Made by a program: the position numbers and the translations under genes | Assembly (NCBI RefSeq): GCF_021890735.1 | Contig: NZ_JAKKUR010000007.1 | Coordinates: 1 to 64,000 of the forward strand | Length of the DNA: 64,000 nt | From: Thermanaeromonas sp. | GTDB lineage: Bacteria; Bacillota; DSM-521; Neomoorellales; Neomoorellaceae | Direction of reading: 5' to 3' | In this document: positions 20,022 through 25,595 of the stretch, piece by piece | How positions within the stretch are numbered: position 1 is the first letter of the stretch | How the letters are laid out: the number at the start of each line of letters is the position of its first letter | Notes under the pieces: model-generated | What the model saw: only the letters and a program-made list of their open reading frames with translations | Told to the model about the DNA's origin: nothing | The model's database searches: none

Positions 20022-20049
20022 AAAAGGCTTTTTAAAAGGGGTGGAAAGG

Positions 20050-20730
20050 ATGGGGAGGTGTTCCTTTTGCGGCAGGTGGTCGTACCGAGGTATCCTCTGC
20101 CCCAGGTGTACTTCGGCCCTTGAAGCATGGAAAAGGGAGTTTCCGATTTGCTCCCTATGCGGCCGTTTGATGGGTAGGGGAGTTTCACAACAACTTTGCC
20201 CTCAGTGCCAGGAAGAAAAACCCCCGTTTCGCCTGGCCCGGGCTGTGGGGCCCTACCGGGGGATGTTGAAAGATGTTATCTTAGACTTTAAATATAAGGG
20301 CAGGCGCTCCCTTAGCCAGCCCCTGGGATATCTTCTGGCTCAAGTAGTAGCGGCAGAACCACTCTTCGGAAAACCCCAGGTAATAATACCGGTTCCCTTG
20401 GCCCGGCAAAGACTAAAGGAACGGGCTTTTAATCAGGCAGAATTACTGGCCCGTGAAGTGGGGCGGCTTCTCGGTCTTAAGGTTGCCGAAGGCGTATTAC
20501 TTAAAGAAAGGGATACCGTTCCGCAGGCCGGGCTCGGCCGGAAGGAGCGCTGGATAAACCTTAAGGATACCTTCGCGTTAAAACGCGCCTCGATAATAGA
20601 GGGACAAGATGTATTGCTTGTTGATGACGTGTTGACTACGGGGGCTACGGTAACCGCGTGTACCATTGTATTACTTCAGGCCGGCGCCCGCTCGGTATCC
20701 GTGGCCACTTTAGCTACAGGTATTCTTTAA
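20050..20730 (+). CDS. comFC: ComFC family phosphoribosyltransferase-like protein
   Basis: A 226-aa protein (229 from GTG at 20041; I prefer ATG at 20050, spaced 8 nt from GGGG). Two N-terminal CxxC pairs (CSFCGRW, CPRC, CSLCGRLM, CPQC) form a zinc ribbon. The C-terminal part is a type I phosphoribosyltransferase fold with the PRPP loop VLLVDDVLTTGATVTAC. ComFC/GntX-like proteins act with ComFA in transformation, binding DNA; no phosphoribosyl transfer has been assigned. It is the last gene of the operon starting with the GT2-like protein. Confidence 0.92.
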   Translation: MGRCSFCGRWSYRGILCPRCTSALEAWKREFPICSLCGRLMGRGVSQQLCPQCQEEKPPFRLARAVGPYRGMLKDVILDFKYKGRRSLSQPLGYLLAQVVAAEPLFGKPQVIIPVPLARQRLKERAFNQAELLAREVGRLLGLKVAEGVLLKERDTVPQAGLGRKERWINLKDTFALKRASIIEGQDVLLVDDVLTTGATVTACTIVLLQAGARSVSVATLATGIL

Positions 20731-20847
20731 GGAGTTTCTTTTAATAAGCGAGAAGATTCGACCGGTGTTATGCCCTATTTTCCCTGTTCCGACAATTTTT
20801 TTATCCTTCCACATAGCAGTCCACAATAAGAGTATAGGGTTTCCAAG

Positions 20848-20956
20848 TTATCAACAGAGTTATCCACGTTATCCACAGGCGAAAGGGTTGTAATGGAGGT
20901 TAAAACATGTTGTTTTCGACAAGACAGCATGTGACAGGAGAAATTTTAGTGGATAA
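20848..20956. promoter_or_regulatory. DnaA-box cluster upstream of the cold-shock gene
   Basis: Three head-to-tail 9-mers lie on the plus strand: TTATCAACA (20848-20856), TTATCCACG (20860-20868) and a perfect consensus TTATCCACA (20869-20877). A fourth, TTATCCACT, lies on the minus strand at 20948-20956, four bases from the -35 box of the csp promoter. The region belongs to a 332-bp gene-free stretch (20731-21062), which otherwise holds only that promoter. Confidence 0.65.
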
Positions 20957-20959
20957 ACT

Positions 20960-20988
20960 TTGACACGGGCCGCCTTACGTGGTATAAT
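20960..20988 (+). promoter_or_regulatory. Consensus SigA promoter of the csp gene
   Basis: Perfect TTGACA (20960-20965), a 17-bp spacer and perfect TATAAT (20983-20988). The leader to the ATG is about 67 nt, and GGAGGAAGG precedes the gene. Confidence 0.9.
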
Positions 20989-21062
20989 GGCACTGCTTCT
21001 CGGGTTTTAAAAAGCCTGGGGGTAACATCTAAAATACGTTTTAGGGAGGAAGGTTGTTTTTT

Positions 21063-21266
21063 ATGAAAATGCTGGGCAAAGTAAAGTGGTTTAGCCCGCA
21101 AAAGGGGTACGGATTTATTGCTGGTGAAGACGGGAAGGATGTGTTCGTGCATTACACGGCCATCCAAGAGAAGGGCTTTAAGAGCTTGGCCCCCGGACAA
21201 GAAGTAGAGTTTGAAGTTGTAGAAGGACCGCGTGGCCCCCAGGCGGCTAACGTGGTAAAGCGGTAG
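21063..21266 (+). CDS. Cold-shock domain protein
   Basis: A 67-aa OB-fold RNA/DNA-binding protein starting [22 protein letters not shown]1 is KGYGFI and RNP2 is DVFVHY; both are intact. The track starts at TTG 21054, but ATG at 21063 gives the family N-terminus and correct spacing from AAGG. It has its own consensus promoter and terminator and is therefore monocistronic and probably abundant. Four DnaA-box-like sites lie upstream, one almost touching the promoter, an unusual setting for a csp gene. Confidence 0.95.
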
Positions 21267-21415: not shown

Positions 21416-21943
21416 ATGCGGTTAACTGTGCGGGGAAAGAATTTTGAGGTTTCCGAGGCCCTTCGCCAGTACGCAGAAAAACGGCTGAAAAAACTGGAAA
21501 GATTTTTAGGCGAAGAGGTAGAAGTTCAGGTAACCATGTCGGTTAGCCGGGACAGGCATGTTGTAGAAGTTACAGTACCCCTGGACGGGTATTTACTTCG
21601 CGGAGAAGAAGCTACAGGAGATATGTATGGTTCCATAGACCTTGTTTTGGAGAAACTGGAAAAGCAGATGGAAAAATATAAAACCCGGTTGGCCAAGAAA
21701 GTTAAGGGAAATACCCTGAAGGAAGGGGCTTTACGGTCTCAACAAGAAGAAGAAGCGGAAGAACCTAGGGTGGTGCGGACCAAGCGCTTCCCCATCAAGC
21801 CCATGAGCGTGGAAGAGGCTATACTCCAGATGAACCTTTTAGGACATAACTTTTTCGTATTTGCCAACGCCGAAACGGAACAGGTGAACGTACTTTACCG
21901 GCGAAAGGATGGCAATTACGGGTTAATTGAGCCAGAGTTATAG
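21416..21943 (+). CDS. hpf: Long-form ribosome hibernation promoting factor
   Basis: A 175-aa protein that dimerises 70S ribosomes into inactive 100S particles in stationary phase. The true start is ATG at 21416 (MRLTVRGKNFEVSEALRQY), with AGAGGTG upstream; the track ORF begins before a terminator. The N-terminal domain (1-100) has the HPF/RaiA fold. A charged linker (QQEEEAEEPRVVRTKRF) leads to the C-terminal dimerisation domain (FPIKPMSVEEAILQMNLLGHNFFVF). A SigH-like promoter upstream matches the stationary-phase regulation known for the Bacillus homologue. Confidence 0.95.
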   Translation: MRLTVRGKNFEVSEALRQYAEKRLKKLERFLGEEVEVQVTMSVSRDRHVVEVTVPLDGYLLRGEEATGDMYGSIDLVLEKLEKQMEKYKTRLAKKVKGNTLKEGALRSQQEEEAEEPRVVRTKRFPIKPMSVEEAILQMNLLGHNFFVFANAETEQVNVLYRRKDGNYGLIEPEL

Positions 21944-22904: not shown

Positions 22905-25595
22905 ATGTTAGGGTTGCTTAAAACTTTATTGGACGATAATGCCCGGGAAATTAAGAAGCTCTCCCAAAAGGTACAGCGCATAAACGCTTTGGAGCCGGAG
23001 ATCAGCGCTTTAAGGGATGAGGAGCTACAGGCCAAGACAGCCGAATTCCGCCGGCGCCTGGAACGAGGCGCCACTTTAGACGACCTTTTACCGGAAGCTT
23101 TTGCTGTAGTCCGGGAAGCTGCGCGCAGGGTCCTGGGCATGCGTCATTTTGATGTGCAGCTGATGGGAGGTATCGTGCTGCACCAGGGTCGCATTGCGGA
23201 GATGAAGACGGGAGAAGGGAAGACCCTCGTGGCGACTTTACCGGCCTACCTTAACGCTTTAACCGGCCGGGGTGTGCATATCGTCACGGTAAACGATTAC
23301 CTGGCCCGGCGGGATAGCGAATGGATGGGCAAAGTCTACCGCTTTTTAGGCTTAAGTGTAGGATTGATCGTGCACGGGCTTAGCACCCAGGAACGGCGCA
23401 AGGCCTACGCCGCCGATATAACTTACGGCACCAACAACGAATTCGGCTTTGATTACCTGCGGGACAATATGGCCTTGCATCCTGACGAACTCGTCCAGCG
23501 AGAACTACATTACGCCATTATAGATGAAGTGGACAGCATACTCATAGATGAGGCGAGGACTCCCCTTATAATTTCGGGCCAGGCAGAAAAGCCTACAGAA
23601 ATGTATTACAGGGTAGCCCGTATCATCCCTAAACTTAAGGCCGGTGAGGACTACCATGTAGATGAAAAAGCCAAAGTAGCTACTTTGACCGAGGCCGGTG
23701 TGGCCAAGGTAGAAAAGCTTTTGGGTATCGATAACTTATATGATGAAGCAAACATTGAGCTTGCACATCATGTACTTCAGGCCCTCAAGGCTCATACCCT
23801 TATGAAACGGGATCGCGATTATGTGGTAAAAGATGGTCAGGTTATAATTGTGGATGAATTTACCGGAAGGCTCATGTTCGGGCGCCGGTACAGCGATGGG
23901 CTCCACCAGGCCATCGAGGCCAAAGAAGGGGTAAAGATAGAGCGGGAGACCCAAACTTTAGCCACCATAACCTTTCAGAACTATTTCCGCATGTATGAGA
24001 AGCTTGCCGGAATGACGGGTACGGCCGCGACAGAAGAAGAAGAGTTTCGCAAGATCTACGGCCTGGATGTGGTAGTGATACCCACCCACAAGCCCATGAT
24101 TCGCATCGATTATCCGGATGTAATCTACCGGACGGAAGAGGGCAAATTCCGCGCGGTAGTGGAGGAGATAGTCGAGCGGCACGCTAAAGGGCAGCCGGTG
24201 CTGGTGGGCACCACCTCCATTGAAAAATCGGAACGCTTGAGTGAAATGCTTAAAAAACGCGGGATACCCCACCAGGTGTTAAATGCCAAATATCATGAAA
24301 GGGAAGCGGAGATCATAGCCCAGGCCGGCCGCTTAGGTGCGGTGACCATCGCCACCAACATGGCGGGCCGGGGAACGGACATCATGCTGGGTGGAAATCC
24401 CGAGTACCTGGCTAAAGAGAGGATGCGCCGGGAGGGGTACCCGCCGGAGGTCATCGCCGAAGCTACGGGTTTCGGGCCTGTCTCTTCTCCTGAGGTGGAA
24501 GAAGCGCGGCGCGTCTTTAGGCAGTATTTAGAAGAAGCCCGGAAAGAAACGGAGGCCGAACATAAGAAGGTAGTGGCCCTGGGCGGCCTCCATATTATAG
24601 GGACGGAGCGCCACGAGAGCAGGCGTATCGACAACCAGCTTCGCGGGCGCGCAGGACGCCAGGGAGACCCGGGTTCCAGCCGGTTTTACCTCTCCCTTGA
24701 GGACGATCTCATGCGTCTTTTTGGAGCTGAGAACATTGCCGGGCTTTTGGACCGGTTGGGGATGGACGACAGCCATCCTATAGATCATCCCCTGGTATCC
24801 CGGTCTATAGAAGCGGCCCAGAAGAAGGTAGAAGCCCATAACTTTGAGCTGCGCAAACACGTTTTGGAATACGATGACGTATTAAACCAGCAGCGGGAAA
24901 TTATCTACAGCCAGCGTCGTAAAGTTCTTATGGGCGAGAACCTGCGCCCGATCATTGAAGATATGATAACTACGGTTGTTGATCGTACTATAGAAAGATT
25001 TGCTGGAGATAGCAAGTATCCGGAAGAATGGGACTGGGAAGGATTCTTGGAGTATGCTGAAAAGCTTTTCCTGCCCGGTTGCGACCGGAGTTTGGCCGAT
25101 GAGTTGCGTAAGATGAGTAAAGATGAGGTTTATACTTTCTTGCGGGAGGAAGCTCTCAAGCTTTACCGGCGGCGAGAAGAAGAGCTGGGTGCGGAAACCT
25201 TAAGAGAGCTTGAACGGGTTATCCTTCTTAGGGTAGTAGATGCCAAGTGGATGGACCATCTGGATGCTATGGATCAGCTTCGGCAGGGCATAGGCCTCCG
25301 CGCCTACGGCCAGCGAGATCCATTAGTGGAGTATAAATTTGAGGCTTACCAGATGTTTCAGGAAATGGTTGCCTCCATCCAGGAAGAAGTGGTGCGGTAC
25401 CTGTACCACGTTAAATTGGTTGTACCCGAAGAAAGGCGCCCCAGAAGGGTCATAGAAAACCGCTATCAGGAGGAGGCTCCGCGGCAGCCCTTCCGCCGTG
25501 AACAGAAGATAGGCCGCAACGATCCTTGCCCCTGCGGAAGCGGTAAAAAATATAAGAAATGTTGCGGCGCCCTTAAAGGGGCTAGCGGGATGTAG
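22905..25595 (+). CDS. secA: Protein translocase ATPase SecA
   Basis: An 896-aa motor that drives preproteins through SecYEG. Walker A is [14 protein letters not shown], Walker [17 protein letters not shown], and the helicase motif [15 protein letters not shown] is intact. The preprotein cross-linking, helical scaffold and wing regions are of normal length. The C-terminus carries the zinc motif [14 protein letters not shown] that binds SecB or ribosomes and lipids. ATG start with AAAGGGGAG. It is followed after 35 bp by prfB, the conserved secA-prfB order of Firmicutes. Confidence 0.98.

Follow-up and report, generated by a model that had tools for sequence, protein, structure and literature searches.

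The 64,000-nucleotide window (the whole stretch of DNA analysed) carries, between comFC and the csp-hpf-secA genes, a tandem triplet of DnaA boxes followed at a fixed distance by a Spo0A box. On balance, this element is probably an off-origin, origin-proximal DnaA-box cluster (DBC) of the reservoir type with a built-in Spo0A site. Its architecture, conservation, fixed spacing and address are established, as are its independence of the csp promoter and the presence of spo0A in the genome. The initial annotation had proposed a DnaA-box cluster controlling csp; an off-origin cluster that is conserved and rare stands, its role as a control element of csp has fared poorly, and the Spo0A-type boxes, two upstream half-boxes and a second conserved address at tsaD had been overlooked.

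The element lies beyond the 3′ end of comFC (20041–20730, + strand), which encodes a phosphoribosyltransferase-type DNA-uptake protein recognized by Pfam PF00156 and DZR_2 and by synteny in relatives. Sequence matches and a family alignment define three boxes on the + strand: box 1 (TTATCAACA, 20848–20856; family-conserved form TTATTAACA), box 2 (TTATCCACG, 20860–20868) and box 3, an exact TTATCCACA at 20869–20877 that abuts box 2, giving spacings of 12 and 9 bp. Upstream are two TCCACA half-boxes on the same strand, which are weak DnaA-like sites. The first (20808–20813) is kept by most of the family, the second, 12 bp further on (20820–20825), is invariant in 15 family genomes, and each also occurs in two other families. 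All four DnaA-box-like 9-mers initially reported are present, three on the + strand and the fourth (TTATCCACT, 20948–20956) on the − strand. This last one, noted initially as four bases from the promoter, does not belong to the conserved element: the family alignment shows it to be absent from other members and even from the congener G001, so that it is probably a chance match.

Relatives were located by DNA search and the element was aligned across family members, most of which carry it between comFC and csp-hpf-secA. The blocks kept in the alignments are a left GACA, the two half-boxes 12 bp apart and the triplet itself, which is thus retained upstream of csp in relatives; a right block, TTTCGACA, is kept in most members, and the csp promoter is kept separately. 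The comFC stop codon and the triplet are 104–117 bp apart in 13 of 14 genomes, and wherever a family member has an exact Spo0A box downstream, it lies 67 bp from the triplet. In G006, csp-hpf-secA has its place 7.6 kb away, with the element still beside comFC.

Conservation extends across the phylum at two addresses. The pattern TTATNNACANNNTTATCCACNTTATCCACA (TTATnnACA-3-TTATCCACn-0-TTATCCACA) occurs in 90 of 399 genomes, against none for the reversed control; these numbers are lower bounds because exact patterns miss degenerate elements such as that of G004. Out of 103 loci, 46 lie at the junction between comFC or a flagellar gene and (csp)-hpf-secA, as in the window, and 45 on the tsaD side, mostly just past the tsaD 3′ end. 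The two addresses together account for 91 loci, eleven genomes having a triplet at both, and several of the remaining 12 apparently represent the same addresses minus a neighbour. In some other families, the gene following the comF-type element is hpf or encodes an ABC-transporter binding protein, and related triplets are found upstream of hpf in genomes named Paenibacillus, Anaerovirgula, Natronincola and Ammonifex. The strict geometry, its absence from the reversed control and the concentration of loci at two addresses argue for a DBC, as does the identity of one of the addresses: the region downstream of gcp (tsaD) is one of eight DnaA-bound regions in B. subtilis, where ATP-DnaA is preferred at low concentration (PMC4447404). 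The tsaD address is therefore already known as a DnaA cluster. The comFC/hpf address is outside the eight B. subtilis regions (PMC4447404), which counts against the preferred reading, and searches of the open-access literature returned neither a cluster at comFC/hpf nor any combination of DnaA and Spo0A boxes in one element away from the origin.

The genes downstream suggest the main alternative, namely that DnaA and Spo0A~P act on transcription from the csp-hpf-secA promoter, as DnaA does on sda or ywlC, which would place an RNA chaperone, along with ribosome hibernation, under the influence of replication and sporulation. The csp promoter (20960–20988, + strand) is, as initially annotated, a perfect consensus of the SigA type (TTGACA-17-TATAAT, 12/12), and precedes csp (21063–21266, + strand; cold-shock protein, PF00313), hpf (21416–21943, + strand, start codon chosen by eye; long ribosome hibernation factor, PF02482 and PF16321) and secA (22905–25595). 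This alternative draws on the conservation of the promoter, on the finding that most comF-type loci have csp or hpf downstream of the element, which fits a promoter role as well as the preferred reading, and on the fact that DnaA is a known transcription factor (PMC4447404). However, within a single family the triplet lies anywhere between 105 and 207 bp from the csp −35 hexamer, G006 has csp at a separate location, several families have other downstream genes (hpf or the ABC-transporter binding protein gene), and the box closest to the promoter is unconserved. The constancy of the triplet–Spo0A distance, set against the variable position of the promoter and the detached csp, indicates that the element is separate from the csp promoter. 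Transcriptional control of csp-hpf-secA is thereby weakened, and we regard it as unlikely, though it is still the main rival.

Two further observations concern this region. Family members share a conserved csp 5′ leader (20989–21062 of the window), in which the relatives' sequence GCTTGAGG...CCTCAAGGGAG may form a stem-loop. Scanned against Rfam, the intergenic region and the csp leader gave only matches below threshold, the best being the cspA thermoregulator, which spans the csp gene itself. Separately, an orientation-dependent transcription roadblock was considered and rejected: the triplet points in opposite directions relative to comFC and to tsaD transcription, leaving no common rule.

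The Spo0A box is an exact match to TGTCGAA on the − strand (TTCGACA on the + strand) at 20915–20921, about 38 bp downstream of box 3 and at offset +67 from the triplet start. This position is fixed in the family and in eight others, so that nine families have TTCGACA at +65 to +68 on the same strand. To the left of the triplet, at an offset of about −60, a Spo0A-box-like TTCCGACA (20787–20794, − strand) differs from TGTCGAA by one mismatch; its GACA block is aligned across the family, and G007, G009 and G011 have an exact TTCGACA at −60. Beyond the family, the frequency of TGTCGAA near comF-type triplets (24 in 11.2 kb) is about 15 times that further away (18 in 129 kb), and the motif is sparse near tsaD triplets (3 in 14.5 kb). 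Among 51 comF-type loci (the 46 above and five apparent ones), the interval from −150 to +180 contains 37 TTCGACA versus 1 TGTCGAA, and TTCGACA falls at +50 to +100 in 27 loci (12 of 25 families) versus 0 of 44 tsaD loci. This fixed offset, the single strand and the restriction to comF-type loci are the grounds for considering the Spo0A site built into the element. About half of the comF-type loci, and of their families, have no exact downstream TTCGACA, which weighs against this reading. The remaining offsets (+56, +57 and +88; on the left −58, −60, −71 and −90 to −92) lie within about 1.5 bp of whole 10.5-bp turns from +67, a suggestive indication, from the sequence, of helical phasing of the box relative to the triplet; the claim is based on distinct offsets and is rated no higher because shared descent inflates the Rayleigh value. 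Shared descent may also be part of the cause of the conserved spacing. In one Paenibacillus group, TTYCGACA precedes box 1 by about 13 bp, the same two parts in another arrangement.

The regulator itself is encoded in this genome, and its DNA-binding domain keeps SRVERAIRHAIE and aligns closely with Spo0A chains of solved structure (1FC3 and 1LQ1), in support of the Spo0A part of the reading. Spo0A is present in all 49 near-complete triplet genomes tested and also in 314 of 357 good genomes of the sample; being nearly universal there, its co-occurrence is uninformative as a test of the box. Upstream of spo0A (G000:C62; L299:10-1836), the frame of a SpoIVB-like protein enters spo0A without a stop, and the congener G001 has a similar long frame, the two measuring 753 and 750 aa; either a fusion or intergenic DNA that happens to lack stops could account for this.

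It is conceivable, but improbable, that the element is a DnaA-box cluster only, and that TTCGACA serves another DNA-binding protein. The tsaD cluster manages without the motif, and the match, a predicted Spo0A site, covers the core 7-mer only. Yet the motif is identical to the published Spo0A box TGTCGAA, which also occurs in B. subtilis oriC (PMC5295017), and both the conserved DNA-binding domain and the presence of Spo0A in every near-complete triplet genome tested run counter to this alternative.

The initial annotation had placed the cluster away from oriC, and its chromosomal position bears this out. The dnaA gene is on another contig (C129), and GC skew is positive across the whole window, on both sides of the element, with no switch at the site. 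In the complete genome of the relative G007, the sign change of GC skew falls at dnaA, and the element, at 223 kb, has positive skew to its left and right. In seven family genomes, dnaA and the comF-type element are separated by 6.7–14% of the chromosome. In most genomes measured, tsaD or its triplet is 11.6–27.5% away, with the exception of G089, where tsaD is nearer the terminus; the B. subtilis gcp is at about 15%. As an observation in its own right, the dnaA neighbourhood in the family (L161:1900-2110 and L311/L330, the dnaA regions of G000 and G007) has few canonical DnaA boxes, although the GC skew of G007 switches there, and the densest clusters found are off-origin. This scarcity of boxes beside dnaA, and the presence of both Spo0A boxes and closely packed DnaA boxes, a combination shared with B. 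subtilis oriC, would suit an origin, or a second one, at the element; with dnaA placed elsewhere and no GC-skew switch at the element, whereas dnaA has one in G007, this was ruled out and is very improbable.

Box number in the window is by itself mildly raised (18 boxes with ≤1 mismatch in 64 kb; shuffles, mean 9.7 and maximum 19); clustering is the standout feature: nowhere in the window other than at the triplet do three same-strand boxes fall within 30 bp. Several DnaA boxes are thus gathered in intergenic DNA, outside oriC, beyond chance expectation. Single boxes are common (554 with ≤1 mismatch in the 2.13-Mb genome), but at this density only about 0.002 such triplets are expected per genome and the geometry and address are conserved across the phylum, so that a coincidental triplet is refuted and its probability negligible. 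The genome-wide count suggested initially gives very few clusters: judged from the surroundings of exact TTATCCACA sites, with one site left out, only two other loci have at least two extra boxes within 250 bp, one just after tsaD (contig C128) and the other a triplet upstream of a ribonucleotide reductase gene (C110). Nothing comparable to the triplet was found in 400 kb sampled from a family relative.

These two loci have features of their own. The C128 cluster consists of six same-strand DnaA boxes after tsaD (G000:C128:6068-6242; L162:4069-4243), three of them exact, with several gaps of about 44–54 bp and equal spacing in the relatives G001, G006, G008 and G014. The C110 triplet (G000:C110:3995-4024; L174:2496-2525) is a third of the same geometry, TTATCTACA-3-TTATCCACA-0-TTATCCACT, about 15 bp upstream of an apparent adenosylcobalamin-type ribonucleotide reductase gene, named from its sequence without a domain search. 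In E. coli, the nrd genes are under DnaA control.

From this arrangement we infer DnaA binding, Spo0A binding, titration and the sign of any Spo0A effect. The triplet would be the site of DnaA assembly, together with the two weaker half-boxes before it; passage of the replication fork would double the cluster, which would take up free DnaA and so damp re-initiation. Some 38 bp past box 3, and with little change in helical face, Spo0A~P would bind and might stabilize or block this assembly. At the onset of sporulation, its presence on the same nucleoprotein complex could tie DnaA availability or local DNA architecture to sporulation entry. The reservoir reading is favoured by the proximity to dnaA (6.7–14%) and by the early initiation that follows deletion of six DBCs in B. 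subtilis (PMC5295017).

More tentatively, and with somewhat less confidence than in a reservoir with a Spo0A site, the element might be an old Bacillota composite cis-element in which the DnaA triplet and the Spo0A box, on a fixed helical face between comFC/fli and csp-hpf-secA, form one nucleoprotein switch, with Spo0A~P setting the amount of DnaA that is held or released. If so, the switch would connect sporulation to initiation directly, in cis, at a place other than oriC. A cluster of strict geometry at two fixed addresses, one with a Spo0A site at near-constant helical phase, across spore-formers makes an action of sporulation on DnaA supply away from the origin directly testable. Most work on off-origin DnaA clusters has been on B. 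subtilis and E. coli, and many of the organisms concerned are anaerobes whose control of replication has received little attention.

Several known systems share parts of this organization. E. coli datA is likewise a cluster of DnaA boxes in non-coding, origin-proximal DNA, presumed to reduce active DnaA, but it differs in sequence and address, requires IHF and operates in a species without Spo0A; since its own marks are an IHF site in the cluster and stimulation of DnaA-ATP hydrolysis, it is comparable only in how it works. The B. subtilis sda promoter also has a DnaA cluster linking replication to Spo0A. The gene that DnaA switches on there prevents Spo0A from being activated; the present element, on which the predicted sites of both proteins lie together, has no gene of this kind next to it. 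B. subtilis oriC similarly combines Spo0A and DnaA boxes; according to the work cited in PMC5295017 (Boonstra 2013, Castilla-Llorente 2006), its Spo0A sites partly overlap DnaA boxes, whereas here the Spo0A box is off-origin and about 38 bp from the nearest DnaA box. The closest counterparts are the B. subtilis DBCs, especially gcp(tsaD)/ydiF (PMC4447404; Okumura et al. 2012 as cited in PMC5295017 and PMC13220808), which, as these sources describe them, are also intergenic, off-oriC and origin-proximal; like gcp(tsaD)/ydiF, the present genome has its own cluster after tsaD. DnaA binding in vitro and in vivo and early initiation on joint removal, which are among the defining marks of DBCs, are predicted for the present element, which is distinguished from its B. 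subtilis counterparts by its address between comFC and csp-hpf-secA, its strict triplet geometry and its Spo0A box at a fixed offset.
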